NCBI GenBank assembly: GCA_019454045.1 | Contig: SKCR01033461.1 | Location: forward strand, 1 to 64,000 | Origin: Zanthoxylum bungeanum | Lineage: Eukaryota > Streptophyta > Magnoliopsida > Sapindales > Rutaceae | Direction of reading: 5' to 3' | DNA: 64,000 nucleotides | Shown: in pieces, positions 13,261 to 64,000 of the stretch | Numbering within the stretch: the first letter of the stretch is position 1 | Layout of the letters: each line of letters starts with the position of its first letter | Notes under the pieces: model-generated | Told to the model about the DNA's origin: nothing | The model's database searches: none | Seen by the model: the letters and a program-made list of their open reading frames with translations, nothing else | Translations under genes and position numbers: made by a program

Positions 13261-13287
13261 AGGACACTTGAGTGATTGACTATAGGC

Positions 13288-13298: not shown

Positions 13299-13299
13299 T

Positions 13300-21915: not shown

Positions 21916-22041
21916 AGAAAAAGGACGATAAACAAATAAGTAACTAAATAAACGATGCAACTTCATTGATTATGGACAACAATGTCCCAAAAGTTACAAA
22001 CAAAGGACGATGCAACATCATAACAGTGCATAAATACATGA

Positions 22042-22416
22042 TCAGTCATTAGTCGAGGGCCGTCGAAAATCTGCGGTCGAATCCTTCATAGCTGAGAACG
22101 TGTCCCTCAATAGATGCCACTCCTTCTGCATCTCTAAATCTGCTACTGCTAGATCAGTCAGGTTTTTCTCAAAATCAACCTGGGCCAAGTCTTTGTACTC
22201 TGTCAAGAAAGTGTTCACCTCCGTTAATTGAGAGGCAATGGTTCTCATTTTGGCCTCTTTCCTCATACGACTCTCTTGGATAAGGCGCTGGATCTCCTGT
22301 AATTGTCGTTCTAAGTCCAGCAATACCGATTCCTCAATCACCATTTCGTCTGTGGTTTCCCATAGAGTCTGGCGAAGGGTGTTGAGGGAATCACGTAGAC
22401 TTTCCTTCTTTGCCAT
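22042..22416 (-). CDS. Antisense ORF downstream of pol (coiled-coil protein)
   Basis: 124 codons, intact, reading against the element. It begins MAKKESLRDSLNTLRQTLW and ends FRRPSTND. Heptad-like leucines and many charged residues (LDLERQLQEIQRLIQESRMR, and a second run near the C-terminus) suggest a coiled coil; no enzyme motif is visible. Position and orientation match the antisense ORF known from Tat-branch Gypsy elements such as Grande and relatives, between integrase and 3' LTR. It is the only ORF in this element without a lesion. Function is unknown. The sequence upstream on the minus strand (22417-22700) would hold its promoter. Confidence 0.65.
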   Translation of the reverse strand: MAKKESLRDSLNTLRQTLWETTDEMVIEESVLLDLERQLQEIQRLIQESRMRKEAKMRTIASQLTEVNTFLTEYKDLAQVDFEKNLTDLAVADLEMQKEWHLLRDTFSAMKDSTADFRRPSTND

Positions 22417-23165
22417 TGAAGAACGAAGCCCAACCTTTTGACTATGTATGTTTCGATAAAGCCGAAACCTACGTGAAACTACCCTGTCACCCTAAAATTC
22501 ACTCATACCTGCCCTTCACGCCACTTGCCCCCACACAAAACAAACATTCTTCACGCCCTTCTCACCAAGACGCCTAGCCACATCACGCCTCAACACATAC
22601 CCTTCACGCTAATAGCCTCTACGAAGGCAACCCATCACCCACAAGCCCTCAACTCAACGTCACATACCCCACTCAAACAGACAGCCAATTCACGCTCACG
22701 TTGCACCCTCTATCAGCGACAAATAGCCACTCAATCAGCCTCTTTCAACACGTCACTGCATTCAAACCTCAACGCCTCAAGCCTTCATCCATTACCTTCA
22801 TCCAGCACACTCACGCATCATCACTCAACAAACACGTCCATAAATCTGCCTCACCTACACTCAACGCCACCTGCCGCAAAACACACACTGCACTGCCTCA
22901 AAAACTGCCGCATATCCCATCTCTGTCCTGACCAGTTTAGTCACACAAATAACCCCTGAAACTGTCCAGAAACTGTCCCAAAACTGCACCAAAAAATTGT
23001 CCAGAAACCCCCTAAAAAATCATCAAAACAGCAGCCCAATTAGCCTTAAAACACGCCAAAATAGTCCCCCAAATTACCAAAAGACAGTGATCATAAAATA
23101 CAACGAAAATAGCAACGAAACGGAGTGAAAACAGCAGTCCAAACAGCGAAACAACGAGGAAAAAT
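22417..23165. other. C/A-rich 3' untranslated region before the LTR
   Basis: The plus strand is strongly biased toward C and A and almost free of G between about 22480 and 23060, with many CACGCC, CACATC and AAACTGTCC words (AACTGTCC repeats at about 22965-23010). The ORFs here (22525-22959 and 22701-22931) come from that bias and match nothing. It ends in a purine run, CGAGGAAAAA (23156-23165), which may be a polypurine tract for the LTR at 23166. Confidence 0.55.
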
Positions 23166-24039
23166 GTTGGATTAGTGAACCAGAAAAGTTGCGGAGTATC
23201 AACCCTTCCGACGGCCGTGTAACGCGCTTTCGTGAGACGAAAAAAGAGGTTAGACCTGAGGGCACCTTTTTTATTTATTATCTTTCGTTTATTTTGTTTT
23301 TTTAAAAATACTATCGCATGAGAGTCGTTTGAGGCATGATGTGATTATTGGATTAGCGGAATATGTGTTCCCTTTCGTGGTATATAGGATGGAAACTCGG
23401 ACGTAAATTCCGTAGCCGATTCCGAATGGATGGTATTGCGGTTTGCACTCGGGATACAATGCCATGTACCACTCGAGACACACGTATTTCGTTTCATCCA
23501 AACTTGTATTTGAGCATGATGTAGTTCGTAGGTTATTTATTTATTATTTAAAACATGATTTAGCTTAGTTTACTATTTATTTTCAAAGCATGATTACGTT
23601 ATTTTTATGCATGATATTTTGATTAGTTTATGTTTGTGTTTAAATCGCTATTTGTTTATTTTGGTTTAATGGCTCAATGTGCTCATTGTGTGTTTCCCGT
23701 TTAAAGACTTACTTTCAAGCATGCAAACTTAGATTATGAGTTATTTTGATGAATACAAACTAGACCTAAGTTACCCTTGAGCATATACGTTGAGTAGATT
23801 CGGTTAGTTTATTGCACAAATCATATTATCACAAGTGACATAAGTAATGGACCATTCCGAACCCAACGGTTTGAGGTCTTCCCTTGCGAAGGGTGAGTGC
23901 GACCTTAAATCATATTTTCCCGGGTCACACCGGGTGGCGACTCCATGTTATTTCTCCGGTTTAGTTCCATCGTGAGCTATTCCGTGCTCCCAACTAGGCC
24001 ATGAGCCTAGAACAGCGTCGCCGGTTTCTGTGTCCTACA
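23166..24039 (+). repeat. Gypsy LTR, second copy
   Basis: 874 bp, clearly homologous along its whole length to 10827-11693, with the same TGTTGGATTAG start and CCTACA end. A purine tract precedes it, as for a 3' LTR, yet it does not resemble the 5' LTR at 5558-6120. It is followed directly by Copia tail sequence that matches 13086 onward. Two elements have probably recombined here. Confidence 0.8.
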
Positions 24040-24252
24040 ACGGTCTCATCAACGATCCAAGTATATACTTCGACTATTTCATCTGATTCGTCAGATCATA
24101 CATCGTGGCGATGTGATGATCGAATATAACGCATTAGATGAAAACATTGCAAATCCGGTGACGAAAGTTGTTTCTCAGTAGAAGTTTGAGTGACCCGTAC
24201 ATAGTTCAGGTGTAGGACACTTGAGTGATTGGCTATAGGCCAAGTGGGAGAT
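24040..24252 (+). pseudogene. Tail of a second Copia (RNase H end to PPT)
   Basis: Homologous to 13086-13299 of the nested Copia: GGTCTCATCAACGATCC, then CATCGTGGCGATGTGATGATC (the C-terminal Copia RNase H region), ending in AAGTGGGAGAT. Everything upstream in this copy is gone, replaced by the LTR at 23166-24039. Confidence 0.8.
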
Positions 24253-26240
24253 TGTTGGACAATTATGACTCATAGCATCACTATTTGTACAGAACATGGT
24301 GTTGTTATACAAATTAACTATGTGACAAAGAAATTGCTCTTTTATCATTTGAAATTGGATTACTGAGATATTTAAATGATAAAAGTCCATATGATTAGTA
24401 CCAGATTAATAAGATATGAGACAATATTAATCCACGTAAGGTTTAATCATTAAATATCCCTAGTCGTAGTATTATTGAGACTGAATATCGATAATGTGGA
24501 ATAAACTAGTATTACACGTGTGCATGTTATGGAAGTGTAACGACATAGTTCTTATATATTTGGGGATTGGATACTAATGCAAGTGTAATAAGAGGTTCTA
24601 TTCTGGATAGACCCCTTGAAATCCCATTGGTAGTATGACTATGTATCTATGGGAATCTGAATCAGGGTAGGTGTATTTGGTCTTAACCTAAGACTTGCAT
24701 CGCTAATACTTGCGACAATCAGTATACTTTGGTTTGGTCGTCCGGGGCTTTAACAGGTTATGTGTACGCCTCTTCTAGGTATACTGAGAATCGTAGTGTA
24801 TTGGGTGTGATGTCAAGAAGGAAGTATCACTTCAGTAATATGGAGATGATGATCACGTAGGATACGGAACTAATACTCTTAAGTACTGCAGTCATCGGGA
24901 TAATATGACTAGGTCATGATTATCCAATTTTAGAGAACTAGTTACTAGAGATCCGATATATGCTTCGTACGGGGCAGACACAATTCCAGCCCCGGGCCTA
25001 GCATGTGACATCCGATATTGGATCGTAATACGCAATACAACGTATACTACGCCTGAAAAGATTATATATTCCTTAAAGAATATTTCTGGAGAATTGGGTA
25101 GGCACGGTGCTTTGCTAGAAGCCAACCTTGTCTTGTAAATCGGTAAGAACGTGGTACGGGGTACTCACGTATTCAGATAGTCCGACGATCGGATTTACTG
25201 CCAACATATCCAGGGATCTCATGGGTCGCTTCCTGAAGATTCACTGATGACATTTGACTCGAACAGAATTAATCTAGGATTAATTATGAGAGAGAAAATT
25301 AATCTGGGGTTAATTACGGCAAGAATTAATCTGGGATTAATTAACAGAGAAAGAATTAATCTGGGATTAATTACGTCGAGAATTTATCTGGGATTAAATT
25401 CGTCGAGAAGAGAGAACACGATTAATTTGGAATTAATCGGCATAGTAAATTTAATAGTGAAATTGGATTTTACTATTTAATTTATTTAATTGGGCTAAAA
25501 TAATATATTAGATATATTAATTGAAATTAGATTTCAACGCGGAATTAAAATTGGATTTTAATTCAAACAAACGAATTAATTTAGAATTAATTCGTAAGCG
25601 ACTTACGTAATAATATTGCGAGACATTATTATTTAATTAAATTGGATTTAATTAAGTCGCAACGGAAAATTCGTTTAATTCGGAATTAAACGAATCTGGG
25701 CCCGAGCGAAGTTGCGTGTTGGATTGTCCAACTTAAATTTGGAATTTAGAGTGGGAACCACCAACTTACATCACTTGTCATTCAAGTTGATGGAAGTCAA
25801 GTTGATGGAAGTGGTTGAGAGCTTTTATGATAGCTTCTCCAACACACTTTGTGTCTTGTTTTGCTTTTGAAAAAAGCATATACACAATTTTTGACAAGTC
25901 AACAAGGGTAACACCTTTTTTGTTTTAGAAACAAAAATAAAAAAACACAATTTCTCTCTTCCTCACCTCTCTTGGCCGAAACTTCAAGGTTTTCTCCATG
26001 GAATTTTTGTTTCAAAAATTCAAGCTTGCTAGCACATTTAGAGTCAAAATAAGGTGATAGGGAAACTCATCCGAGAGTATGGAACTCGATTTCAAGCTCC
26101 AAAGCTTCTATTACATCCAACAAATGAGGAAGTTTTGAAATCCTAAATTCGATCAATGTGAGTATTTCCGCAACTCTCTTTGATTTATTCACACACAAAT
26201 CACTCTTAGACGATCTTGGCATGTTCTAGGAACACTAACA
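24253..26240 (+). repeat. LTR of the second Copia
   Basis: 1988 bp, TGTTGGACAATTATGACTC to GAACACTAACA. The first 1.4 kb matches the LTR at 13300-15256 well; the last ~0.5 kb (after about 25690) has diverged, including a longer leader-like end. A primer site (TGGTATCAGAGC, 26243-26254) follows although Copia 3' coding sequence precedes, so this LTR sits between two internal regions, as in a tandem or recombined element. Confidence 0.82.
25263..25405 (+). repeat. AATTAATC...GGATTAATT minisatellite in Copia LTR
   Basis: Five to six tandem units of about 28 bp built on the near-palindrome AATTAATCTGGGATTAATT. The related LTR at 13300 has about three units (14341-14420), so copy number varies between LTRs of one family. 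Confidence 0.75.
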
Positions 26241-36757: not shown

Positions 36758-36984
36758 GAAAGGGTAACCCGACCGGGGCCCTGTGTACACTTAAACTTTT
36801 CGTAATAACATTTCAATTTTGTATTTTGATATACACACATATATATCTATGTTTATTTCGTGTCTCTTTTTTTATTTCCCTCCTTTTTTTTTCTTTTCCT
36901 ATCGTCCGAACAATTTCGAGACCCTTCAGGGGTCATCATGAATCGGAGGGGTATAACCTGACCCCGAGCTGAGTAATGGACTTA

Positions 36985-37575
36985 GATTCTGGGGTAATGT
37001 TTCCTCCTCCCCAAATCGAAAGATTTTGACTCGGTGGGACGTAACCCGACCCCGAGCCGAGAAAGGCACTTGGACCCGGGGGAATGTTACGGACCCAGTC
37101 CAAAGAGCTGACTCGGTGGGACGTACCCCGACCCCGAGCTGAGTGAAAGACTTGGGTTCTGGGGGAATGTTACCTCCCCAAACCTAAAGGAGCTTGACTC
37201 GGTGGGACGTAACCCGACCCTGAGCTGAGTGAAAGACTTGGGTTCTGGGGGAATGTTACCTCCCCAGTCTGAAGAAAACCGACTCGGTGGGACGTAACCC
37301 GAACCCGAGCTGAGTGAAAGACTTGGGTTCTGGGGGAATGTTACCTCCCCAGTCTGAAGAAAACCGACTGGGTGGGACGTAACCCGACCCCGAGCTGAGT
37401 GAGAGACTTGGCTCTGGGGGAATGTTACCCTCCCCATCGAAAGAGTTTGACTCGGTGGGACGTAACCCGACCCCGAGCTGAGTGAAAGACTTGGGTTCTG
37501 GGGGAATGTTACCTCCCCAACCTAAAGGAGCTTGACTCGGTGGGACGTAACCCGACCCCGAGCTGAGAGAAACCA
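36985..37575. repeat. Tandem array, ~85-bp unit, first block
   Basis: About seven units spaced 80-86 bp. Each has a core running from GACTCGGTGGGACGTAACCC to CCCCGAGCTGA, then ACTTGG-TCTGGGGGAATGTTAC and CTCCCCA. The core can fold because CTCGG pairs with CCGAG. The unit is not a multiple of three and every frame is open on one strand or another, so the many ORFs here are by-products. Confidence 0.95.
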
Positions 37576-37578
37576 GTG

Positions 37579-37705
37579 GACTCGGCGGAACGAATCCTGC
37601 CCCGAGCCAATTAACCATATGGCCTCGGCGGAACGAAATCCAGCCCCGATCCAGTTAACCATATTGCCTCGGCGGAACGAAATCCAGCCCCGAGCCAGTT
37701 TAATA
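37579..37705. repeat. Tandem array, ~50-bp variant unit
   Basis: Three units of GGCCTCGGCGGAACGAAATC...CAGCCCCGAGCCAGTTAACCATAT type. The CTCGG...CCCCGAG core is the same as in the 85-bp units but the rest differs. Confidence 0.9.
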
Positions 37706-37879
37706 TTTGGGACTTGCTCAAAAGGGAACTGAATCGACCTTTGTGAAGCCCTACCGAATCTGGCATGGGCGTCCCTCTGCCAGATCGGTAAAAAACAAAA
37801 ACAAGATTAAATAAAATTAAAAGGTGGGGGTGACTTAGCACCTATCCCGAAAATGTTTTTGTAAGCATAAACAACAACA

Positions 37880-38400
37880 TGGATGCCTCAAAACAGCGTC
37901 CCGTCTGAGGTCTTCCAAAACATAATTTTGAATCTTTCAGTTCAGTGTCCCGGCGAACCAGGATTCGGATCAGAAGAGCGTTTGATTGGTAAGGGCACAT
38001 CCTCTACACGTCGGTCCACTGGGGAGCCTGTGTATTTCATGAGGGCTCCTCCTTACCACGCTGGAGTAGGCACACGCTACATGGGCACGACGCATCCCCG
38101 TGCTGCGTCTCTCGCGGATCCGGATGATGAATGGATCAAAGAGTGTCCGGGATACAAATGGCACATTCCTCCTTAGGTCCGACATCACTGGAGCTAGCAA
38201 TCGTCACGGGGGCATCATTATCCCCCGTGCTATGCTTTCCCACGGATCCATTACATCTGGTAAGTGAGGATCAAAGAGTGTTCGACACATTAAGGGCATA
38301 TTCCTCCTTATGTTCAGTAACACTGGAGTAAGCAATCGCCACAGGGGTATCATCCTTCCCCGTGCTATGCTTCTCACGGATCCTATGCATCGAGTATGTC
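37880..38400. repeat. Spacer with repeats of ~130 bp
   Basis: Two to three diverged copies of a segment containing ATCAAAGAGTGT...CACATTCCTCCTTA...CACTGGAG-TAGCAATCG...CCCCGTGCTATGCTT...CACGGATCC (about 38090-38230, 38230-38390). It lies between the two main tandem arrays and encodes nothing recognisable. Confidence 0.65.
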
Positions 38401-39240
38401 CCTGAGGACCCCGAGCCAAGAGAGATACTTGGTTCTGGGGGAATGTCTCGTCCCCAAACCAATGAGCATGACTCGGTGGGACGTAACCCGACCCCGAGCC
38501 GAAAAAGGCACTTGGACCTGGGGGAATGTTACGTCCCCAGTCCGAAGGGCTGATTCGGTGGGACGTAACCCGACCCCGAATGAAGAGAGGCACTTGGACC
38601 TGGGGAATGTTATGTCCCCTGTCCGAAGGGCTGACTCGGTGGGACGTACCCCGACCCCGAGTGAAGAGAGGCACTTGGACCTGGGGGAATGTTATGTCCC
38701 CAGTCCGAAGGGCTGACTCGGTGGGACGTACCCCGACCCCGAGTTGAGAAAGGCACTTGGACCTGGGGGAATGTTACGTCCCCAGTCCGAAGGGCTGACT
38801 CGGTGGGACATACCCCGACCCCGAGCTGAAAAAGGCACTTGGACCTGGGGAATGTTACGTCCCCAGTCCGAAGGGCTGACTCGGTGGGACGTAACCCGAC
38901 CCCGAGCTGAAAAAGGCACTTTGGACCTGGGGGAATGTTACGTCCCCAGTCCGAAGGGTTGACTCGGTGGGACGTACCCCGACCTCGAACTGAGAAAGGC
39001 ACTTGGACCTGGGGGAATGTTACGTCCCCAGTCCAAAGGGCTGACTCAGTGGGACATACCCCGACCCCGAGCTGAAAAAGGCACTTGGACCTGGGGGAAT
39101 GTTACGTCCCCAGGCCAATAAGCACGACTCGGTGGGACGTAACCCGACCCCGAGCTGAAAGAAAGACTTGGCTCTGGGGGAATGTTACGTCCCCAGTCCA
39201 AATAAGCCGACTCGGTGGGACGTAACCCGACCCCGAGCTG
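38400..39240. repeat. Tandem array, ~82-bp unit, second block
   Basis: About ten units at a regular ~82-bp step: GACTCGGTGGGACGTAMCCC, CCCCGAGCTGA, AAAGGCACTTGGACCTGGGG, AATGTTACGTCCCCAGTCCG. Neighbouring units are more alike than units of the first block, which suggests recent local amplification. Two 44-bp units with CTCGGCGGTA and ACCCGAGCCGG follow at about 39250-39335. Confidence 0.95.
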
Positions 39241-39355
39241 AAACAAACATCGGTCTCGGCGGTATAAGAGCAGACCCGAGCCGGAAAGAAACATCGGTCA
39301 CGGCGGTACAAGAGCGGACCCGAGCCGGAAAGAAACATATGGCCTTTGTAGGGCG

Positions 39356-41347: not shown

Positions 41348-44009
41348 TGTTGATGGGTGATTTTAGTTTCAGGGGTAATATTGGGATAATGCTTCCGGGA
41401 CCATCCTCATTCGACCGTGAATTTGTTTTGTTATGGGGGGCCAAAGGCAAACTTAGCAGAAGACTAAACAAACATAAAATTGACAAGAGGGTTTACGTGG
41501 TTCGGCGGAGTGAATCCAGCATACGTCTACAGGAACAAAGTAGAGTGTTAATTTTATTACCAAACCGAGCTCGGCCGACCTCTTTTAAAAGGTGGTCTAA
41601 TGTCACCGAGCTGTTTGCCCTTTTTCTTGTGTCTTATAAAATGGTACTTTCCGTGAGATTTTTGGCTATCCCTTTACTAATGATACTAACCTCACTTTAT
41701 ATACTAAGAGAAATACAACACTATTCCCATATCTTTATGACGTCAGTCACGTGGATCTCCGGCGGATTGACGGGCTCTCTACCCCAACTGCCTCGCCGAA
41801 AGTAAGTCTGCCATCTGACTCCCTGTCACATCACTGTTTTATGCACTGCCACACTCCACAATTATGATGACAACTTGTAAAGATCTCTCATAAGGCGATA
41901 CATGTCAGAGGGAAAAGTCCAAACGGTCCCGGTCTCACATCGGGCATTATGAAGACGGCCAAACATTGTGCCGACCTACTCCCACTACTTCCGTACTGAT
42001 CCAAAATATCCAAGATGAAATGATAAGACTGAAACGAGCTACCGGGCCAAGGTGGTCGGTCTCGGCTCTGACGTTGTCAGCATTTGAAATTTGTATCGTG
42101 CTGTATCCTCAGGTCGGCCAAATCCAAGAAGCCGGGTTCGAACACTATGTCTGGTCGAAGAGTGACTAATACCCCAGACCATTCATCCTACCAAAATGAG
42201 AAATATCATCTCTGCCTTTGTCTTACTGTTCAAATACTCCATCACAAAACACCATCAACATCTTTCCCATAGTTCTCGGTTTCAGCGAGCTGAGCGAGTT
42301 GGTACCGGGAACTACAAAGTCAGGTGTGTGCCGATCAACCAGTCGGTGGTCGCCTGAAGGATCCACAGAGAAAACTACCTCGGCTACCAATCAATTCACC
42401 CCGGTCAACTTCATGTGTTCAGTTACCGAGGATTCCAATGTCCGTTCATGGGGAAAATGCTCCGGCCCCATGTTGACGATAATTCACTCAGTGGGACGTA
42501 ACCCGACCCCGAGCTAGTGGAACACTTGGCTCCGATGGAATATCTCCTCCCCGGACAATGGAACATGGGGTCTTGGCCGAACGAATCCAGCCCCGAGCTA
42601 GTGGAACAAATAGCCTCAGCGGAACGAATCCAGCCCCGAGCTGGTGGAACAATTGGCCTCAGTGAAATGAACCCAGTCTCGAGCCAGTGGAACAAATGGT
42701 CTCGGCAGAACGGATCCAGTCCCGAGCCGGTGGAACAAGTGGCCTCGGCGGAACGAATCCAGCCCCTAGCCGGTGGAATAATTTGCCTCTGCGGAACGAA
42801 TCCAGCCCCGAGTCGGTGCAACAAATGGTCTTGGCGGAACGAATCCAGCCCCGAGCCGGTGGAACAAATGGTCTCGGCAGAACAGATCCAGTCTCGAGCC
42901 AAGGGAACCAATGGCATCGGCAGAACGAATCCATTCCCGATCCGGTGGAACAATTGGCCTCAGCAGAACGAATCCAGCCTCGAGCCGGTTGAACCAATGG
43001 CCTCGGTGGAACGGATCCAGCCCCGAGCCGGTGGAACAATTGAGACTTAATCGCGATGGAGGTGACTTTAGTTCAACAATTGACGGGTAATTTTAGTTCC
43101 AGGGGCAATATCGGGATAGTGCTCTTGGGACCATCCTTCTTCAACCGTAATTTTGTTTGGTTATGGGGGACCAAAGGCAAACTTAGCAGAAGACTAAACA
43201 AACATAAAATCCACAAAAGGGTTTACGTGGTTCGGCGGAGTGAATCCAGCCTACGTCCATGGGAACAAAGTAGAGTGTTAATTTTATTACCAAACCGAGC
43301 TCGCCCGACCTCTTTTAAAAGGTGGTCTAATGTCACCGAGCTGTTTGCGCTTTTTTCTTGTGTATTACAAAATGATACTTTCCGTGAGATTTTTGGCTAT
43401 CCCTTTACAAATGATACTACCCTCACTTTATATACTAAGAGAAATACAATATTATTCCCATATCTTTATGACGTCAGCCACGTGGATCTCCGGCGGATTG
43501 ACGAGCTCTCCACCCCAACTGCCTCATCGAAAGTAAGCCTGCCATCTGACTCCCTGTCACAACACTGTTTTATACACTGCCACACTCCACAATTATGATG
43601 ACAGCTTGTAAAGATCTCTCATACGGTGATACATGTCAGAGGGAAAAGTCCAAACGGTCCCGGTCTCACATCGGCCATTTTGAAGAAGGCCAAACATTGT
43701 GCCGACCTACTCCCACTTCCGAACTGACCCATAATGTTTGAGCTCATTTTCCCTATCCAATATGAAATGATAAAACTGAAACGAGCTACCGGGCCAAGGT
43801 GGTCGGTCTCGGCTCTGACGTTGTCGGCCTTTGAAATCTGTATCGTGATGTATCCTTAGGTCGGCCAAATCCAAGAAGCCGGGTTTGAACACTATGCCTG
43901 GTCGAAGAGTGACTAATACCCTCAGACCAGTCGTCATCCCAAAAGGAGAAATCTCATATTTGCCCTTGCCGTACTGTTCAAATACTCCATCACAAAAACA
44001 CCATCAACA
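41348..44009 (-). mobile_element. Shrunken LTR element related to the 32726-40790 family
   Basis: Flanked by GATGT (41343-41347 and 44010-44014). LTRs at 41348-42260 (913 bp) and about 43078-44009 (932 bp) are very similar and share the ACGTGGTTCGGCGGA / CTACGTC motif and the TGTTGATGG...CATCAACA ends with the larger element. Only ~0.8 kb lies between them, mostly tandem repeats; gag and the primer site are lost. The motif TAGTTCTCGGTTTC after the left LTR matches 33482 onward, so the orientation is the same. Confidence 0.87.
42490..43045. repeat. Tandem array, ~48-bp unit
   Basis: Ten or eleven units built on GGTGGAACAA-TGGCCTCGGC, GGAACGAATCCAGCCCCGAG. One starting unit (42485-42530) still has the GGGACGTAACCCGACCCCGAG form of the larger element. 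The CTCGG...CCCCGAG core is conserved here too. In-frame readings exist because 48 is divisible by three, but the peptide is simple repeat. Confidence 0.95.
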
Positions 44010-49705: not shown

Positions 49706-52700
49706 CAGTGTTCTAAAACGCGCTAGGCGCTAGTCGGGCAGTGACCCAGCGCCTAGGGCACTTAGGCGGGGCCTAGGCAATTAGTCGGCAAATAATTAAA
49801 AATCTAATATTTTCCAACATCATTATTCATAAATAATCCAAATTATATAAATTCAATCGAAATGTAATAAAACATAAAACAATTAATCAAACACAATCAA
49901 TCATATAATGATTTAAAACATCATTTATCTAAGTTCATGTTCATCATCCTTTAACAAAGTTAAATACAACTAAATATCTAATTCTTCTTCATCCTATTCA
50001 AACTCATCATCCTTAAGTTTTTCATCAGAATCAAAATCTTCTTCATCAAGTTCTCTGTATTCATCATTTCTAGCGTTTTTTCGAGGTTGTAATATTTCAT
50101 ATGCCCTAGATGCTTCTCCAACCATCCTCCAAGTAAGCCCCGAACCGGGCTCCACTTCTTCATCATCACCAGAGTCACCACCCTCAATAATCCATCCTTG
50201 TGCATTAGTAGCATCTTTTGCTTGTAATACATTCAATTTCAAATCCTTCTCCATTTTGTGCTTGTTCTGTAACTTGGCATTAAAGGAAACAAAGACATGA
50301 TTGTTTAATCGATTCACATCTAGTCTATTCATTTTCTTCGTGTAAATCTACATAAATAATTTAAATACATCAATTAATATTAATAATTATAAAATAAAAT
50401 AATCAAATATTTAGTTAATGTTAAATATTTACCCATTCAAAAGTGCTCCAATTTTGTTCGCACCCGGATGAACTAGTGGTTAATGAAAGTATCATTTTTA
50501 CCATTTTTAGCAAGTTAGGTGTATGATGTCCATATGTACGCCACCATGAAAATACAAATTAACATAAATAGTTTGAATGAAATATAATAAATCTTATATA
50601 TTTTGTAAAATAATTCAAATGAATACTTTGTTTTTACCTGGATTAAAAACATCAATCGATACCCGACATGCTTTGGCCGCCACTTCTCTACCAAAAGCTT
50701 CATCTTTTGTCTTATGCGAAGCCAACTCCTCATTTATCACCTTACTTTGCATGTCAATGTCATTAGGGAAGAAAACCTCCACAACCGTAAATACCCCATC
50801 CATTACATTCACATCGTACACAATACTTGTATCCTTATAGTAGTAGTAAGGATTTAATAGATAAGCAACACAATGCAATGGAGTATCAAGCCGCCCTTCA
50901 ATTTTACTATCAATAATCTCCAAGATTGGCCGATAATTACTCTCAATATTGTTCAATGCATCATTTATCTCTTCTTTTGCATTCTTTAGCTCTCCATAAA
51001 CAAACCCCATGGATGGCTTTCTATCCCCATCAACTAATTGAAGCACCCTCACCAAAGGTGCAAACGCCTTCAAACATTGAGTTACCCCATTCCAAAAAGA
51101 GACACTCATCACCGTGGCAAATGCAGCTTTCCTTTTAGCTTGCTTCGACCATATGCACTCATCTCATTCCGTGCTAGCAAACATGGTTCGCAAACTTTCT
51201 TTTTTCTCGATCAAACTTTGTAAGATTAAGAAAGCTGAGGCAAACCTAGTTAATCCCGGTCTGACTATGTCCTCTGTTTTGTAAACAATCTCATCATGGA
51301 CAAAGTCTTGTGATGGGCATACACGAAAATGGTGAAAGCCTTGGCACTATCAATGATTTTTTTTTTGTACCTCGGCAATTTCTCAATACTTTCAAGCATG
51401 AGGTTTATGGTGTGAGTAGCACATGAACTCCAAAAAATATTTGGCATCTTCGCCTTCAACAACTTTGCCGTGGCCATATTGTTTGAGGCATTGTCTGTTA
51501 CAACTTGAACCACATTTTCCGCCCCCACTTGTTCAATGCCCGTCATAACATACTTATAAATGTGCTCAGTAGTATGCGCCACATCAGAACTTTCCTTGGA
51601 AGAAAGGAAAGTGGTACCTATTGTGCAATTAACACACAAATTCATTATGCTTCTCCTTTTCCTATCACTCCAAGCATCTGTCATGATCGAACACATGTTC
51701 TCCTTCCACTCCTTCTCATGTTGTAGAAAATCTTTAACACTTTCAACTTCCTCTTTCAATAATGGCTCCCTCAATTCATATTGGCTAGGACCTCTGAAAC
51801 CCGATCCAAATTGACCAACTGCTTCCATCATCGCTATCCAGCTATCATTGTCAATGGCATTGAACGGAATACCGGATTCATCAACACACTTAGCAACAAA
51901 TCGCTTCACATTATGTGTCTTCTCTTTAAAAAGTGTTTCATTAATATTTTGTTGACGCATTGTTTTACCATCACTAGCTGAAGAATCATGAGGATTTACC
52001 ACTGTCCACCTATCTAAAGGCCCGTGATGCCAAGGGGGTTTTGAATCTAACCATTCTTCTTCTATTTCACGAATTTCATCTTCTTCTTCATCGCTCCCAA
52101 TATTCACTCCTTGCCTTATCTCACTAACATGCTTCTCTTTTCTTTTCTTTTTATTTCTTGCCTCCAAAATGGCTTGTCTACACTTCTCTTGATTTTCTTT
52201 ACTGGGTTTTGGACATTTTGCAACATTCCCTGATATATGTCCAATATTTTCGTTCATTCTATAAACTCCACCGGAATTTTTTTTGAACATAACTTGCATT
52301 TGACTTTATCCAAGTTAATCGGATCCACTAAAACCCCATACTGCTATCCAACATCATTTGAGTTCCGTTTAAGAACCGGACAACACTCTGAATTAGAAGC
52401 CGCGGAAGAAAAAGCCATGTCCTACTAACAGTATAAGAATGAATCAATTAATTTAATTAGCAATGAAAATATGAAATATACTAAATCTAAATCTTAAATT
52501 ATATAATATAATATGCAAAATAATTGAAATTTTCAATTGAATACTTAGTAGTACTAAATAAATTTTTTTTAATTAAGTAATTAGTTATTATTTATTAATT
52601 ACAAATAAACACTCTAATGTCAAAATAAAAACAAATAACAAAATAAATATAATAAGAAAATGGAACAGTATCAAGCTAATATAGAAGAACCCCACAAATA

Positions 52701-56130: not shown

Positions 56131-56915
56131 AGGTCTCATACCTTATATTAATTTTGATAATAATAAATCATGTATCAATTTTAATTAGGAAAAGCACTCA
56201 TCAATGATATAGATGGAAGAGCAACCATAAAAATGAGTAAAAGATAAAGAAATATTCAAGCTCAACAAGTTTCAAGATTGCAGAAGAATAGTTTATGTGA
56301 AAATTCTTATCAATCTTATAAATCTTTTTGATTATTGGTTATTCATGTTAAGCATGTAAGATCTCATTGAAATAAATCTCATGTATATCATTCATCATTT
56401 TAGTCAAATTTTATTTTATTTTATTTTAATGAAAAATGACTTATTTGTAAGATTTCTAGACTTTTGGTCAAATTTATAATTCTTAAAAGTTTTAAAATCA
56501 TGAACTTGATCATTTTTACAACTTTAGTGGTCCTAATTGTATTCCTTAATATATGAAAATAGTCTATTTTGAAAGATTCCTCATTAGGGAAATTTGTTTC
56601 TATAGAAATGACTTATTTTAAGATTTCTAAACTTTTGGGCCAAATCTTGAATTTCTTAATAGTTTTGAAATCAAGAACTCGATCATTTGTTTACAATCTT
56701 TATGGTGATAATTATATTCCTTAATATTTATAAAAATGATTTTTGAAAGATTTCGAAACTGTTAGGAAAATTTATAAATTCATTAAAATTTTGAAAATGG
56801 ACTAAAATGATATTGGCCTATCGGGCTAACAGATTATTCTAATCGGTGATCCGATAGTGTTAAATATTGAAATTTTGTGTTAATAATGGCTATATTTCTT
56901 TTTATTTATGAATAC
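56131..56915. other. AT-rich sequence with a diverged tandem repeat
   Basis: Two imperfect ~165-bp copies (about 56440-56600 and 56612-56775), each reading AAGATTTCTARACTTTTGG, then TTTTRAAATCA, ACTYGATCATTT and ATTCCTTAATAT. No coding potential. It ends at AATAC (56911-56915), the presumed target duplication of the element that follows. Confidence 0.6.
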
Positions 56916-57105
56916 TGATGAGTGGTATTTATATCACTATTTCCCACTCATTTAACCTAATATTTTGTATAGTTTCTTGAGTTTTGTGAATGTTTTGATA
57001 TGTTTTGTGTTATTTTGTAGATAAAATAAAGTTTGGAAAGCATTGGAGGCAATTTGGGGCAAAAACGGACAAAAATGCGTCAACAGGGATATTTTATTCT
57101 TTTGC

Positions 57106-57139
57106 GCGTCGCGACGCCCAGACTTCCGCGTCGCGACGT
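57106..57139. repeat. Paired GCGTCGCGACGC palindromes, upstream pair
   Basis: GCGTCGCGACGC at 57106-57117 and GCGTCGCGACGT at 57128-57139, start to start 22 bp. The same pair is found in the 3' LTR (63162 on). Confidence 0.9.
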
Positions 57140-57224
57140 CTAAAATACGCCGAACAGTGCTAACGTGCGCCGGGTCCACAAATCAGAATCTGAGAAAAGT
57201 TTGACTTTGCTAAAATACGCCGTG

Positions 57225-57624
57225 CCACGTGTCACCATCACAGCCGATCTGCTAACGTGCGCCATGCCACGTGTCAGCATCCTACGGTGCCTACAGTCAT
57301 CATCGCCACGTGTCGCCACATCGTCGCCAGTCACCGCCATGTCATCAGCCATGTCAGCAAGTCAACAAGTCAAATTGCCACGTGTCGTGCCACATCATCA
57401 TCAGCCAATCAGGAAGTGACACGTGTCGCAATTCTATGGTGCCGACAGTCTCTTTCCCACGTGTCACCACGTCATCGCCAAGTCAGCGCCACGTCAGCGC
57501 CACGTCAGCATCAATAATTGAGTATCCTATCCTTATCTGACACGTGGTGGATAAGAATCTCAGCGACCAATCAGAAGCCGCCACGTGTCACAATAATTGA
57601 AGCCCAACCACTCTGCCACGTGTC
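57225..57624. promoter_or_regulatory. Array of nine CACGTG (G-box / ABRE-like) sites in U3
   Basis: CACGTG cores at 57226, 57268, 57307, 57379, 57420, 57458, 57541, 57582 and 57617. Eight read CACGTGTC on the plus strand and the one at 57541 reads it on the minus strand. Further CACGTC words lie between. CACGTGTC combines the G-box bound by bHLH/bZIP factors with the ACGTGTC core of abscisic-acid response elements. The array ends about 115 bp upstream of the TATA box and is repeated in the 3' LTR. Confidence 0.75.
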
Positions 57625-57687
57625 ACCTTATCATCTTATCCAGAATCTTCAAACAGCGAACCAGAGCGTGCCACGTCGACAAATCCG

Positions 57688-57721
57688 GCGTCGCGACGCT
57701 GAGGTCCTGGCGTCGCGACGC
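57688..57721. repeat. Paired GCGTCGCGACGC palindromes, downstream pair
   Basis: Perfect 12-bp palindromes at 57688-57699 and 57710-57721, again 22 bp start to start. This pair lies between the G-box array and the TATA box, mirroring the pair on the other side of the array. Confidence 0.92.
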
Positions 57722-57738
57722 TGGATCCTACCGAGGCC

Positions 57739-57745
57739 TATAAAT
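57739..57745 (+). promoter_or_regulatory. LTR TATA box
   Basis: TATAAAT within GGCCTATAAATTGAGCTCG, followed after ~35 bp by a CT-rich region typical of plant transcription starts. Transcription would start near 57770. Confidence 0.75.
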
Positions 57746-59140
57746 TGAGCTCGACATTTCAGAATTCATTGCACATTCCTCTCTCTCTTCAATTCCTTCT
57801 AAAGAGAGTTTCTCTCTCTAGATTCTTTAGTTTTTTAGTTTTTTTTTATTTTTAGTTTTTAGTTTTGTAAATAATTTTAATTACGTTTTGTAATAATAGT
57901 AATTTAATTTTTACTTTTTACTTTTTACAGTTTTTACTATTTACCATGAGGAGGTAACTTCTCCAACTAGGGTGAAAGGTAATTCTTTTACTGTTATATT
58001 TAGATTAATCTCCCTTAAAAATAATATATTCACTATTTAAAATATTGACTTAAAAAGGATACCGCCAGATTGGTCGGTTGGTAATTCATTTTAATCTGGT
58101 TTAAACATGACTAATAAAAGATACCGCCAGATTGGTCGGTTGGCAATTTAATTTGGTTCCGCCTTTATGGCTGGTTGGACTTAATTTGACTTAATCAGGA
58201 TACCGCCTATATGGTCGGTTGGTATTATTATCACAAGTTTATATATTATTTTATGGGAGATATCTAAATTAGTAGTAGTAAAAGTAATTCATTTTACCTT
58301 AGCATTTTATTTTATTTTACTTTTCAGTTTTACTTTATGTCTTTTACTTTTCAGTATTTTTACTTTATGTCTTTTACTTTTAAGTTGTTACTAGCCCTAG
58401 TTATGTGTTAGTTATCTGGGGTTGTGATGAATTCTAATATCACCGGTTTATAAGGTTATTTTATAGTTGGGTAATTTAATGTTTACTTATTAAGTCTTAA
58501 GCTTAATGCTTCTTGTTGTCTGATCACCAATAAGATTGATGTGGTAAATCTAAAATGAACTAGACATAGGGATTTTAGGTTTCAGCCTTAGACTTAATAG
58601 CCCACGATCTTCCTTGAGGATAGATAACCCTTTAATAGATTTCCTTACAGGATAGGAATATACCTGTCGGGCGGGGGTAGCCATAATTGGAACTTAAACT
58701 TAATGAATCCAGATAATTTGATTGACATAGACATATGGTTCAATTAGGTTAAACTGGGTATTTGTGTCTGACCATCGACAGAGGCTTTTGCATAATTTAG
58801 TGTTCCAGGTTAGTAAACTGATTTATTACACAAACATAAGATAATCACTTCATCTTTAAAATGATATTAGAATGATTCACAACCCTAGATCTTTGTGTTT
58901 TTTATTTTATTTTCCTTAGTATTTTTTCTTTTGAGTCTGTTTTTATTTTATTTTTGCAAAACCACTTTCAACCAATCAAACAATCATTCTCTTCACCCTC
59001 AATTAGATATTTGTAAATAAATAGATTCAATAATTAATAACAATAGTAGGAATTAAGTCCTCGTGGGATCAATATTTTTATACTACTTGAACGATACGTG
59101 CGCTTGCGTTATACGTGTGTGTTTACGCCAGTCAAGTTTT

Positions 59141-59158
59141 TGGCGCCGTTGCCGGGGA
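59141..59158 (+). other. Athila primer-binding site (tRNA-Asp)
   Basis: TGGCGCCGTTGCCGGGGA is an exact complement of the 3' 18 bases of plant tRNA-Asp(GTC), including CCA. This is the usual Athila-lineage primer. Confidence 0.95.
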
Positions 59159-59266
59159 CTTATATTTCTTGAGTTGTTAATTTTGAAACTATCCAATTTA
59201 CTTGTATCTAATTTTCTTTATTTTTATCTGTAATTTTTATTTCTTTCTTTTTCAGGTGATTGAAAA

Positions 59267-60340
59267 ATGGAACACTACTGGGAGATTGAGAGATTACGAG
59301 CGTTACAAGAAGATACACCCCACATTTGGGAGCAACAGTCCGATTTTCTGAGGCCTGTTGTCCAGCCCAACAATTATCACTGGATGCCAGAACCAAGCAA
59401 TTCTACATTTGCTCAACAGAACGAAATGGGAAGATGTGTAATATGTGATAGTAACCACCCGAGCGATCAATGTAATACCGTTCAGAGTGGCAGAATTTCA
59501 GAATCATTCAAAGTATGAAAAACCATCACATTTTCCATCTTATCCACCATCCATATGCGATTTTCATCAACAACTAGAACCATCAGAGGAAGATCAGTTG
59601 TTTAACATGCTCAAAGATATGTTTGAGTTGGATGAAATGCTTGAAACAAGCCAGAATCAATTGGAAAGTATTCAGAGACAATCAGAATTCATTCAGAGGA
59701 TGACAGATCAAATGAGACAATTCACAGAAAACCAGAACTACATACCTCAAGAACCATTTCAGATGACACTGATGAAGCCTTCAAATACCAATCATTCCAC
59801 AATGACACTTCAACAGAGGAGGAAGCTGAGCAGTATCAACAACCAGAGGTATCAGTTCAGGAGCCCGAACCGGTAAAGTCTCAATTTGACTTTTATTATT
59901 CAGATTCTGACGAGGATGAAGCTGATCTATTTGTACTAACTGCACCAACAACGGAGGATCAAACATTCAATCCTCAAAATGAAGATCTTGGAGCATGTTT
60001 TACCATGATGTTTGAAGAAGATCTATCTGAACCATCCATTCCAGTCATATCAGAGGATGAAGACCTAATGTCAGAAACATCTTTGCATCATCTAGTTGAC
60101 AATTTTGAAGCATGTATTTCACAGATGACAGATGAAGAGCTGAATACAAAAATTTTAAAATTCATCTGTGAAGAAAAAGGTGGAGAAAGAAGCAAAGCAA
60201 ATGGAGAGAAGCAAATGTCTGACCTTAATAAAGATCCAAGTATTCAGGAGAAACATCGCTGTTTTGGGGAGTATAAATCAAAGATATCACCCAGAAGCTT
60301 GACCGAATGGAACTTCCATTCCAAGTCAAGCACCATATAA
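59267..60340 (+). pseudogene. Gag-like ORF of the Athila-type element
   Basis: The ATG at 59267 follows an acceptor-like TTTTTCAG. The first part (to about 59490) reads MEHYWEIERLRALQEDTPHI and includes CVICDSNHPSDQC, a CX2CX3HX4C knuckle like those in Athila Gag. A frameshift at about 59485 moves to the second frame (HFPSYPPSICDFHQQLEPSE, then a Gln-rich helix NQLESIQRQSEFIQRMTDQM). The text continues after a stop at 59874 with an acidic region (PVISEDEDLMSE) to 60340. It is much shorter than a full Gag-Pol: the capsid domain before the knuckle is largely missing, and nothing of pol follows. Confidence 0.65.
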
Positions 60341-60532
60341 GACCTCCTGATTTTCTTTCTTTCTTTGCAGGAACCACTGGAACAACAAGGAGCAAAAAGG
60401 TGGCACTGAATGGGACAAAACTCTTTTTGCCACCTTACCGTTGGAAGAGACCCTTCAAAAGCAACGCTCACGGGATTGTTTTTGATCGGACATCTAAAAC
60501 GACATTGAAACCTCCTTAACAGATGAATTTCA

Positions 60533-60590
60533 GTCACGTCTGGCTGAAGACGAAAAATTTAGCGCTAGCAGGGAGGCAACCCATGCAATT
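60533..60590 (+). other. Conserved Athila block after the pol position
   Basis: CTGGCTGAAGACGAAAAATT, then AGCGCTAGCAGGGAGGCAAC and CCATG. A block of the form GGCTRAAGACGTTAAA...AGCGCTTGTTGGGAGGCAACCC ends pol in many Athila elements, so everything between gag and this point (pol) has been deleted. It probably matters for RNA function, since it outlived pol. Confidence 0.75.
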
Positions 60591-60976
60591 TTTTGTAATT
60601 TTTATATTTTGTGTATATGTTGTAGAGTTTTTAATTTTGTGTGTTAGTTTTCAGGGAAAGCACGAACGGAGCATTTTAAGACAGAAGGAATGGTGTTTGG
60701 CAATCACAAAGATGAGAGCTAATTCATTAGCGATGGCTGAATAATGAATGGATTCTTGAAACGCATCCTAATGGATTTATATACCAAACTAGTGGCGTAT
60801 TGCGTACACAATTCTGTTGCCTTAATTATTGCTTTGATTTGCTTTTCTTTTGTTTTTATCTTTATTTTCGCCGACAAGATTTATACTTTTTGACTTTCAC
60901 GATTATTTTAACGTTCATCTAATAATTGTCATTTGGCAGATACTAGTGCAATTATTACTAGCCCATTTTCAGGTTC

Positions 60977-60983
60977 TATAAAT
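60977..60983 (+). promoter_or_regulatory. TATA box in front of the LOG-like gene
   Basis: TATAAAT 60 bases before the LOG ATG, followed by AAGCTCG-like text and a CT-rich leader. From TATAAATT on, about 20 of 22 bases match the LTR's own core promoter at 57739 (TATAAATT-AGCTCG-CATTTC in both). A captured promoter or a chance match are both possible. Confidence 0.5.
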
Positions 60984-61042
60984 TCAGCTCGTCATTTCTC
61001 TCTTCAACACATCCAAATACACATCCAAATAAGAGAGAGAAA

Positions 61043-61695
61043 ATGGAAGCAACTTCACAGCAGCGAATCAAGCGTATTTGTGTTTTCTGTGGATCCAATT
61101 CTGGTAATAAACCAGAATTCATCGAGGCTGCGAAGGAATTGGGGCGAGTCATAGCGGAGCGAAATATGCACCTGGTATATGGCGATGGCAATCTTGGATT
61201 GATGGGAAGTATTTCAAAAGCTGTTCAGGATGGTGGCGGTCATGTTTTGGGAATCATTCCAAAACCTTTGGCGGACAAACACTTAATCGGACAAACAAAT
61301 GGAGATGAACGCATCGTATCTGGAATGCCCGAACAAATTCATGAAATAATCAATACTGCAGATGCGTTTATTGCGTTACCAGGAGGGCTTGGGACGTTTG
61401 AGGAAATGTTACAGTAGCATCATGGGCGCACTTAAATATTCATCGGAAGCCCATTGGGTTAACTTAACATTGAGCATTTCTTCGATTTTCTGTTTGTATT
61501 TCTTGCAGAAGCCAAAAGACATGAGTTCGTCACGAAATCAGTACATGATATCTTCCTGACTGCGACAAAGGCGAAGAATTAATTGACCAAATCATAGCCT
61601 TTGAACCAAAACTCGATCCCATTCTCTCCAAGTTGGACTGGACACACAACGATCGTGGTAAGAAGCGTAAACTGGACATAGATCTTAATCGGTAG
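61043..61695 (+). pseudogene. LOG-like: LOG-like cytokinin riboside 5'-monophosphate phosphoribohydrolase, intronless captured copy
   Basis: LOG enzymes release active cytokinin bases from cytokinin nucleotides in the cytosol. The open part, 61043-61417, begins MEATSQQRIKRICVFCGSNS; then come LVYGDGNLGLMG (family: YGGG..GLMG) and ADAFIALPGGLGTFEEMLQ, which is the signature PGGxGTxxE with its catalytic Glu. Similarity goes on past the stop with three single-base lesions: a deletion at about 61415 (next ASWAHLNIHRKPIGL), an extra base at about 61465 (next HFFDFL, then HEFVTKSVHDIFLTATKA) and a deletion at about 61572 (next ELIDQIIAFEPKLDPILSKL), ending TAG at 61693-61695. Total 653 bp fits a full LOG of ~215 residues without introns, whereas plant LOG genes have several. 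The catalytic Arg position (MxxR in relatives) appears to be Gln (GMPEQ), and one Gly of the nucleotide loop is Asp. Confidence 0.9.
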
Positions 61696-61740
61696 TTCAA
61701 CTAATCAGGTACGATTTTCTAAACTCTTATTCTACTGTTT

Positions 61741-61785
61741 AAGACATTGGGGACAATGTCTCATTTAGGTTTGGGGGAGGAAATT
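61741..61785 (+). other. Athila 3' block with inverted repeat and PPT-like tract
   Basis: ACATTGGGGACAATGT is an inverted repeat, followed by TTTAGGTTTGGGGGAGGAAA. The same kind of block follows the coding part in other Athila elements. It shows that the LOG copy sits between this block and the one at 60533. Confidence 0.75.
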
Positions 61786-62172
61786 AGTTGATTAGTACCT
61801 TGTTTTTAGTTTGTATTTGTTTTTATTTTTAGTCCAAAATTTTTCGAAAAAAAAAAAATTGAAAATTTTTCAAAAATTACAAAAATATTTGTGTTTTTAA
61901 TTTGATTAGTTTGGTGAAATTAGTTAGAAACATTTCTCAAGCCTATTTTCGAAACAAGTTAATTTTTGTTTATTTCATTTTGAATTATTTAATTTGTGAA
62001 TTCTCCTTAAAACGGACTAAAAGGAATCTTCATATGTTCAGTTGACAGATATTATCAACATATATAGTAACATACGGACATGAGCTAAATTGAAAAGTTT
62101 GTAATATTCAGTGCTCTAGTTTAATTGGAGGAAGCATCTCAAAAAGCAATGGAGTAAAAAAAAATAAAAAAA

Positions 62173-62415
62173 ATGTCTGAGATCCGAGTTATTAAGTCTG
62201 TAAGGGTGTTTTGACACCTAGTGCCCTAAAACCAACTGGTTTGGGAGTCATTGGCCCAAAGCTCGTTACATGGATCGAAGATGCTGCAAAAATATATATA
62301 TCTGAAGTCTGAGTAATTAAGTCCGTAGGGGTGTCTTAACACCTGGTGCCCTAAAGCCAACTGGTTTGGGAGCCACCGACCCAAAGCTCGCTACATAGAT
62401 AGAAGATATTGTATA
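62173..62415 (+). repeat. Tandem duplication, ~125-bp unit
   Basis: Two copies (about 62173-62292 and 62302-62415) with GAGTWATTAAGTCYGTARGGGTGT, ACACCTRGTGCCCTAAA, CCAACTGGTTTGGGAG and CCCAAAGCTCGYTACAT. They lie in the 3' untranslated region and do not code. Confidence 0.9.
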
Positions 62416-62954
62416 TAAATAAAAAATAGAGAAAAATCAAAGAAAAAATCAGAAAATCTGAAAATCTGAAAAATTATTCCATTGCTATAAAAAAGGTGTG
62501 AAATCTAATAGAACTTTAGGACAAAAATATTACTCTCTTATCAACTGCACTTATGACTGTTGTGGGCAAAAATGAGTTGATTAATATTTTGTTGGTTGTG
62601 TATATGAAGAATGGTAAAAACAATCGGAGAATTTACTTATTCGGTAATTTAGAATGAAACAAAACAACTAGTAACTTGGAGTAGAAGTTTCACTTGATTA
62701 GTCACTAACATCTTTATTCTCTTTTCGCTTGTCTTTTTGCTTTTGTGTGCATTAATTTAAACTAACTTTCTTTTGTAAAATGTGTGGGTATCATTGCTGT
62801 AAACCCTCACGAGACTACAACTCGTCCACTAGGGACACCTAGGGGTTTAAAGGCTTGTTGCATATGGTAAATGCAACCGTGATCCCTACGAAAGTGGCTT
62901 AGTTAATTTATTTATGTTATTTTACTCTATGTTTGGCCGAGGACTAGCAAAATG

Positions 62955-62970
62955 TTAGGTTTGGGGGTGT
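62955..62970 (+). other. Polypurine tract before the 3' LTR
   Basis: GTTAGGTTTGGGGGTG directly precedes TGATGAGTGG, the LTR start at 62971. Confidence 0.85.
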
Positions 62971-64000
62971 GATGAGTGGTATTTATATCACTATTTCCCA
63001 CTCATTTACCTAATATTTTGTATAGTTTCTTGAGTTTTGTGAACGTTTTGATATATTTTGTGTTATTTGTGTAGATAAAATAAAGTTTGGGGAAAGCATT
63101 GGAGGCAATTTGGGGCAAAAACGGACAAAAATGCGTCAACAGGGATATTTTGGTCTTTTGCGCGTCGCGACGCCCAGACTTCCGCGTCGCGACGTCTAAA
63201 ATACGCCGAACAGTGCTAACGTGCGCCGGGTCCACAAATCAGAATCTGAGAAAAGTTTGACTTTGCTAAAATGTGCCGTGCCACGTGTCACCATCACAGC
63301 CGATCTGCTAACGTGCGTCGTGCCACGTGTCAGCATCCTACGGTGCCGACAGTCATCATCGCCACGTGTCGCCACATCGTCGCCAAGTCACCGCCATGTC
63401 ATCAGCCACGTCAGCAAGTCAACAAGTCAAATTGCCACGTGTCGTGCCACATCATCATCAGCCAATCAGGAAGTGACACGTGTCGCAATTCTATGGTGCC
63501 GACAGTCTCTTTCCCACGTGTCGCCACGTCATCGCCACGTCAGCGCCACGTCAGCATCAATAATTGAGTATCCTATCCTTATCTGACACGTGGCGGATAA
63601 GAATCTCAGCGACCAATCAGAAGCCGCCACGTGTCACAATAATTGAAGCCCAACCACTCTGCCACGTGTCACCTTATCATCTTATCCAGAATCTTCAAAC
63701 CAGCGAACCAGAGCGTGCCACGTCGACAAATCCGGCGTCGCGACGCTGAGGTCCTGGCGTCGCGACGCTGGATCCTACCGAGGCCTATAAATTGAGCTCG
63801 AGATTTCAAAATTCATTGCACATTCCTCTCTCTTCAATTCCTTCTAAAGAGAGAGTTTCTCTCTCTAGATTCTTTAGTTTTTTAGTTTTTTTTTATTTTT
63901 AGTTTTTAGTTTTGTAAATAATTTTAATTACGTTTTGTAATAATAGTAATTTATTTTTACTTTTTACTTTTTACAGTTTTTACTATTTACCATGAGGAGG
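62971..64000 (+). repeat. 3' LTR of the Athila-type element, cut by window end
   Basis: Matches 56916-57955 with a few substitutions and one-base indels, including the G-box array, the palindrome pairs (63162 on and about 63735-63770) and the TATA box near 63786. About 1.2 kb of LTR should follow beyond the window. Confidence 0.95.

Follow-up and report, generated by a model that had tools for sequence, protein, structure and literature searches.

Why does a gene-like sequence of the LOG family stand inside a retrotransposon, and is it a chance passenger or a part of that element? The question is raised by a stretch of 653 bp in a contig of Zanthoxylum bungeanum, which an earlier note had read as a full-length hormone-activation gene copied from mRNA. 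By the window we mean the whole stretch of DNA analysed, 64,000 nucleotides in length. We conclude, with a probability of roughly three in four, that the window holds a dead copy of a large non-autonomous LTR family with an intronless LOG-like gene, here called R-LOG, as its standing cargo.

Architecture of the element

The element measures 8.3 kb (contig 56916-65189) and encloses an interior of 3.8 kb (59135-62969). Two LTRs, TG..CA ends and a 5-bp TSD identify it as an LTR retrotransposon (Table 1). The PBS-like stretch TGGCGCCGTTGCCGGGGA presumably fits the 3' end of plant tRNA-Asp, which we take to be an Athila-type PBS. Both LTRs belong to a single insertion, as is borne out by the AATAC TSD on either side and by a K2P distance of 0.0105 between the LTRs over 2,203 sites. 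At a rate of 1.3e-8 per site and year, as used in the available passages of PMC5664825, the age of the insertion is estimated at about 0.4 million years.

Table 1. Features of the R-LOG element (window coordinates unless the contig is named).
Feature	Position	Strand	Remark
Left TSD AATAC	56911..56915	.	right twin directly after the 3' LTR, contig 65190-65194, beyond the window
5' LTR	56916..59134	+	start TGATGAG, end GTCA; 10 of the window's 20 CACGTGTC motifs inside
PBS-like stretch TGGCGCCGTTGCCGGGGA	59141..59158	+	sequence reading
ORF1 region, broken in the window	59267..60519	+	CxxCxxxHxxxxC motif present
TATA-box-like CTATAAAT, upstream of the LOG cassette	60976..60983	+	
Intronless LOG homologue, R-LOG type A, pseudogene	61043..61695	+	open to 61417 only (124 aa)
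Coding stretch of the C-terminal basic + LDIDLN tail (KKRKLDIDLNR)	61660..61692	+	sequence
Tandem pair of 125-bp units, 80% identical, 3' non-coding part	62163..62412	+	
Polypurine-tract-like stretch adjoining the 3' LTR	62957..62969	+	sequence reading
3' LTR, first part	62970..64000	+	continues to contig 65189

Besides two pieces of ORF1 and the LOG homologue, the ORF scan of the interior revealed no ORF of at least 100 aa and no gag-pol coding capacity. By the same scan the interior is devoid of RT, and it offers neither gag nor another known domain by which a lineage could be assigned. In copy L029 the ORF1 frame is open over 431 aa. A Pfam search of this frame gave no family above the cut-off, and the five homologues that were found are all unnamed; on these grounds an identification of ORF1 as gag was rejected. 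The two conserved Athila blocks named in the earlier note found no support in these ORF and Pfam scans. Since ORF1 and LOG are the only interior ORFs of at least 100 aa and ORF1 has no Pfam match, the element is called non-autonomous.

All 20 CACGTGTC motifs of the window fall within the two LTRs, ten in each, with 0.7 expected from shuffles. We take CACGTGTC to be a G-box/ABRE-like motif; judging from these motifs, light or ABA signals may act on the LTR.

Elsewhere in the window, positions 13086-25340 are occupied by another gypsy-type element with gag (15398) and RNase H (20237), flanked by direct repeats of 87.9% identity; a weak integrase match at 20953 lies below the Pfam cut-off. The minus strand of 51268-52299 contains a 344-aa ORF with a DUF659 domain (E 8.5e-51), presumably as in hAT-type transposase relatives. 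Two tandem arrays (36954-39243 and 42575-43039) have units of 82-85 and 43-44 bp and CCCGAGC/ACTCGGTGGGACG motifs.

The LOG homologue and its origin

The cassette is placed between ORF1 and the 3' LTR. As described earlier, CVFCGS, PGGxGTxEE and ELIDQ..DPILSKL are present in that order, uninterrupted by introns. The first 124 codons match AtLOG3 (2a33) with an E value of 2.3e-36. The 217-aa protein P0003 is 89% identical over the same codons and its later parts match the remaining pieces, so that the homology spans the entire 217-aa LOG-like protein. The gene, however, is not intact. A stop at 61417 cuts its frame short, leaving 124 of 217 codons, and three indels distinguish it from copy L012; together these exclude an intact gene in the window. 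Relative to L012 the window copy also carries four private replacement changes and no private silent one. In the sister copy L002 we found the LOG domain (PF03641, Lysine_decarbox/LOG; E 1.5e-31).

Plant LOG genes had been assumed to be multi-exon, and the one host LOG gene that was read, on L090, agrees with this: it has seven exons, which match LOG7 proteins in the blocks 1-38, 38-72, 71-80, 80-114, 112-138, 138-185 and 185-216. A passage of the intronless cargo through mRNA, as proposed before, is thereby supported. Judged by its sequence, the cargo is a processed copy that has lost its introns relative to a multi-exon parent family. Host LOG genes were searched with the C-terminal 79 aa of one LOG7 as query, and its rows were classed on identity (40-44%) and length. 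Among the matches listed, query residue 48-54 is the last one reached by 25 of the 27 rows taken as host LOG exons and residue 65 by the other two, and the 123 rows taken as R-LOG continue to residue 68-70. The L090 gene, the only host gene read to its end, has a LOG7-like C-terminus without the R-LOG tail.

The donor gene was found neither among the listed LOG7-type proteins nor in the host search with this C-terminal LOG7 query. Identity to the 124 open codons of the window does not exceed 58% in any listed LOG7-type gene, and the two cargo types that share one backbone (see below) are separated by a dS of about 1.5. Both values contradict the fresh capture of a host LOG that had been envisaged, and a recent single capture was excluded on this basis.

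Copies and scale in the genome

The host assembly comprises 3.96 Gb in 51,709 contigs and is thus fragmented. A search with the LOG segment, starting from 5,248 first-look candidates, yielded at least 40 scored matches including the window, with 98-100% identity; 39 of them cover all 653 bp and one covers 649. Besides the window, 20 copies were taken as stretches of up to 10 kb and 19 as short pieces. The same flanks recur at many sites. The suspicion that the cassette belongs to a mobile family is thereby confirmed, and a lone event is not what the genome holds. An open frame of 217 codons is present in 13 of the 40 copies and missing from 27, the window among them. As all 40 were chosen by LOG similarity, the impression that LOG is the best-conserved part of the element is biased.

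Among 18 other copies with an LTR pair, 14 end cleanly in TG..CA and are flanked by an exact 5-bp repeat; L013 is one base off, and L014, L015 and L018 gave none. The LTR K2P distance lies between 0.0005 and 0.030 in 16 of the 18, L014 and L015 being excluded as neighbours with mis-chained LTRs. These two copies, 5.8 kb apart on contig C22507, seem to share an LTR in a tandem of the form LTR-interior-LTR-interior-LTR. L019 and L020 are seemingly one insertion present on two contigs.

The cargo occurs in two types, A (including the window) and B, and sites were counted with one 23-base marker per type, allowing at most one mismatch. The type-A marker, exactly present in 33 of the 40 LOG-picked copies, hits 2,098 sites (control 0). 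For type B the figure from its single 23-mer is 26,670 sites (control 1). Marker sites are not equal to insertions, because the assembly seems to contain some insertions twice. In a protein search with P0012, which is type-B-like, no internal stop was found in 122 of the best 150 of 70,292 first-look candidates, a share that is not typical because only best matches are considered. Among the 123 listed rows taken as R-LOG in the LOG7 C-terminal search, 51 are open over 217 aa or more.

Two cargo types in one backbone

A DNA search with ORF1 gave at least 40 scored matches including the window, and the LOG slot was taken from 19 of them. It holds type B in 13 copies, type A in one, other sequence in three and nothing in one (L085); the remaining copy, L088, departs from the family after about 117 bp. 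Hence five of the 19 copies are without LOG. The sole type-A copy of this sample (L086) is open, but its ATG is lost and the frame begins with ATA. All 217 codons are open in a single type-B copy out of 13, L083, which carries a frame-shifted block around codons 30-48. Roughly 1 kb of unrelated sequence fills the slot in L074, L080 and L082. The terminal 43-56 bp of LOG are still present in L080 and L082, which look like copies whose gene was replaced by another insert. L085 (1-1228) lacks a stretch matching window 60854-61695, i.e. the promoter and LOG up to the stop, and may represent an empty form or a deletion.

Types A and B share 60-65% protein identity and are found within the same backbone. 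Compared with the window, the 13 type-B copies are 68-71% identical in LOG and 81-90% in the 450 bp upstream. Over the 250 bp downstream of LOG, identity returns to 81-91% in 12 of the 13, with 60% in L078. Identity changes over at the stop codon and, on the other side, directly behind CTATAAATTCAGC at the TATA-like box; CTATAAATTCAGC is shared by all 40 copies picked by LOG and by 11 of the 13 of type B. The occurrence of two diverged types within one backbone implies that LOG cassettes have been exchanged. The simplest reading would be a swap of the 5' leader together with the ORF between co-packaged RNAs.

Purifying selection on the cargo

Among 11 open type-A copies (55 pairs), after removal of the duplicate L020 and of L021 with its frame-shifted block, pN/pS is 0.110; if L021 is retained, it rises to 0.257 over 66 pairs. 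Changes were also counted in 38 type-A copies against L012 (L020 omitted) and in 12 type-B copies against L083 (codons 30-48 omitted). For type A, differences shared by at least four copies comprise seven silent, one replacement and no stop changes; those in two or three copies, five, six and three; singletons, 21, 34 and four. The most widely shared changes are thus mainly silent, and private ones are closer to neutral. Type B shows 15 silent and eight replacement differences in at least four copies, 17 and eight in two or three copies, and 40 silent, 36 replacement and two stop changes among singletons. In total 72 of its 124 non-stop changes are silent, compared with a neutral silent share of 0.285. 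Between A and B, dS is 1.51 and dN 0.24, giving a dN/dS of 0.16 without the frame-shifted block and 0.18 with it, a value that may partly date from a time as a cellular gene. The substitution pattern shows past purifying selection on the frame of the cargo.

The R-LOG protein

In a tree from a quick search, with rows hand-chosen from hit lists and other LOG groups left out, R-LOG (53 rows) separates from LOG7-type proteins (17 rows) with an SH-aLRT support of 100%. Named sources are Populus, Xanthoceras, Reevesia and Diplodiscus, with Malvaceae among the families of the clade. Clusters reach 39 and 35 members in Xanthoceras and 28 in Reevesia, and the Populus members are annotated as LOGL10. 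P0124 and P0126 are 95% and 88% identical to an open type-A protein, and their leader residues partly match the translation upstream of the window LOG; from this similarity both seem to derive from the same backbone. Two Xanthoceras entries, P0122 and P0123, have two R-LOG domains per chain (P0122 with two Pfam stretches) and are perhaps gene-model fusions of neighbouring copies. Relatives in a virus collection (21 loci) are 24-44% identical over their best segments, and none of them is close.

The predicted model of P0003 has a mean pLDDT of 85, and residues 203-217 of the tail are mostly below 50. It matches AtLOG3 with TM scores of 0.94 by target length and 0.76 by query length. The clade is marked by a C-terminal tail consisting of a basic part, which we take to be NLS-like, and LDLxLxL, presumably EAR-like. 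At least 120 proteins were listed with a tail-less query; 89 of these reach the C-terminus and 30 fit a strict tail pattern, which P0002, P0004, P0005, P0050 and P0074, R-LOGs with damaged or different tails, fail. In the list from a query profile that included the tail, 83 of 87 fit the pattern.

In CgLOG, Arg99 and Glu122 are proposed to be catalytic, the pocket is formed by His97, Lys100, Glu125 and Trp129, and alanine exchanges at AMP-binding and catalytic residues nearly abolished activity, according to the excerpted text of PMC4979012. Via the common PGGxGTxxE motif, Arg99, Glu122, His97, Lys100, Glu125 and Trp129 correspond to positions 98, 121, 96, 99, 124 and 128 of R-LOG. Type A has Gln98, Ile99, Pro96 and Thr124, so the catalytic Arg is lost and Glu121 kept, and Trp128 is the sole residue of the pocket set (H97/K100/E125/W129 in CgLOG) that remains. 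Type B (L083) has kept both catalytic residues, Arg98 and Glu, next to Leu99, Ser96 and Ile124. Clade-wide the prenyl/adenine pocket is mostly replaced: the 30 tail-bearing R-LOGs of the tail-less query list contain Arg98 in 27, Lys99 in six, Glu124 in six, His96 in seven, and Glu121 and Thr118 in all 30. In the 83 of the tail-profile list the respective numbers are 76, three, three, 11, 80 and 78. The early-branching P0030 and P0068 retain His96, Arg98, Lys99 and Glu124. With Gln in place of the catalytic Arg, type A is unlikely to activate cytokinins in the ordinary way, and production of cytokinin by this type appears doubtful from its residues. Of the designation as a hormone-activation gene, the homology to LOG therefore stands; the activity is doubtful, with catalytic and prenyl/adenine-binding residues changed.

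Alternative explanations and proposed role

If R-LOG were a neutral passenger, a single chance capture of a host LOG would lie behind it, and the gene would be replicated with the element without serving it. Decay of the frame in 27 of 40 LOG-picked copies and the state of the window copy (four private replacement changes, no silent one, three indels) are in line with this, and gene capture by LTR elements is common according to the available portions of PMC5664825 and PMC13317346. A pN/pS of 0.11 in open copies, seven silent to one replacement among the shared differences, a type B that is likewise rich in silent changes, and a clade with conserved length and tail across several plant families nevertheless make such a passenger quite improbable. 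Selection could also have acted on host genes, if R-LOG were an ordinary cellular LOG subfamily (LOGL10 in Populus) that was captured more than once and of which the element copies are recent derivatives. The annotation of Populus members as LOGL10 genes would fit, and a tailed, intron-bearing host gene is possible, as one canonical gene (L090) of 27 rows was read to its end. This gene, however, ends like LOG7 without the R-LOG tail, the cluster sizes in Xanthoceras (39, 35) and Reevesia (28) suit a repeat, and PMC9289625, in the part available, reports a YgdH (LOG) domain in consensus LTR elements from Citrus and Populus trichocarpa. We regard a cellular subfamily as unlikely.

Compatible with the main explanation is a working cytokinin-activating enzyme by which the element would stimulate cell division or meristem fate and thus raise its own transmission. 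Thr118 and Glu121 are conserved (30 of 30 each; 78 and 80 of 83), as is Arg98 (27 of 30; 76 of 83), which type B (L083) keeps, and P0030 and P0068 even retain His96, Arg98, Lys99 and Glu124. The exchanges Q98, I99, P96 and T124 in type A, however, concern a site at which alanine swaps nearly abolished CgLOG activity (PMC4979012, as excerpted), and Lys99 and Glu124 each persist in only six of 30 and three of 83 proteins, so that we consider an active enzyme unlikely. An assembly artefact or a chance similarity might be suspected from the fragmentation into 51,709 contigs and from L019 and L020, which seem one insertion. Element ends and TSDs with differing flanks, an E value of 2.3e-36 to a solved LOG structure and marker controls of 0 and 1 refute this and leave it a practically negligible chance. 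The likelihoods given to these explanations overlap, and not all of them are mutually exclusive.

Our preferred reading therefore remains the dead copy of a non-autonomous family with a standing LOG-like cargo. The loss of introns, the mobility, the multiplicity and the constraint are the strongest results, and the function is inferred from them and from the sequence. R-LOG gives the impression of a component that the element has retained for a long time, not of a chance passenger, and is most likely an accessory protein. In the proposed mechanism an autonomous gypsy (Athila-like) partner would move the element in trans, and R-LOG would be produced from its own TATA promoter or from read-through RNA. 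Cargo versions would be swapped by template switching between co-packaged RNAs. The product would be a folded LOG-type nucleotide-binding protein, bound for the nucleus via its basic tail, and might aid the element through an effect on nucleotides or transcription of the host. A more specific and tentative idea, which we rate as rather unlikely, is an element-encoded nuclear effector on a LOG fold that is no longer a hormone enzyme. Its nucleotide pocket would have a new use, the EAR-like tail would recruit a host co-repressor, and it would be kept by selection for tuning host silencing or transcription to the element's favour. In several plant families it would have moved from one element to another as an exchangeable cassette.

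Genes captured by LTR elements are commonly taken for passengers. The present cargo is under constraint, is swapped as a module and occurs at thousands of sites in one genome, so that the benefit of a LOG-like protein to a retroelement becomes testable with two small proteins. Plant gene sets may also list R-LOGs as cytokinin genes, as with LOGL10 in Populus.

Comparison with known systems

Steinbauerova et al. (2011, Genetica) reportedly described an additional, LOGL4-like ORF in Athila-like Ty3/gypsy elements. The YgdH (LOG) domain is in print for plant gypsy elements, in LTR consensuses of Citrus and, under a looser filter, of P. trichocarpa (PMC9289625, in the portion available). The present family may differ from these published elements in the lack of pol, the thousands of sites and two anciently diverged LOG types in one backbone, and in that a changed active site, a tail and selection are documented. 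The literature searched, mostly at title level, contained no report of selection, cassette exchange or an active-site change for a retroelement LOG. As far as searched, the scale, the cassette exchange, the selection and the altered active site with its tail are new.

In pepper, retroduplicated intronless NLRs inside mostly non-autonomous LTR elements are reported to be under purifying selection (PMC5664825, passages available). The R-LOG family resembles them in all three respects, intronless host-gene copies, non-autonomous LTR elements and purifying selection. The pepper work counts 105, 123 and 86 NLRs inside LTR elements of three genomes, whereas here there are thousands of sites and no present-day donor was found. 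Phalaenopsis gypsy elements carry an ORF for an AlkB m6A demethylase whose activity was shown in vitro (PMC9289625, same portion). They likewise keep an enzyme-type accessory ORF, but the active site of R-LOG is altered. With the plant cytokinin riboside 5'-monophosphate phosphoribohydrolases LOG3 and LOG7, R-LOG shares the predicted fold and the PGGxGTxEE motif. Unlike them it is intronless, His96, Lys99 and Glu124 are mostly replaced, Arg98 is lost in type A, and the chain ends in the basic and LDLxLxL tail.
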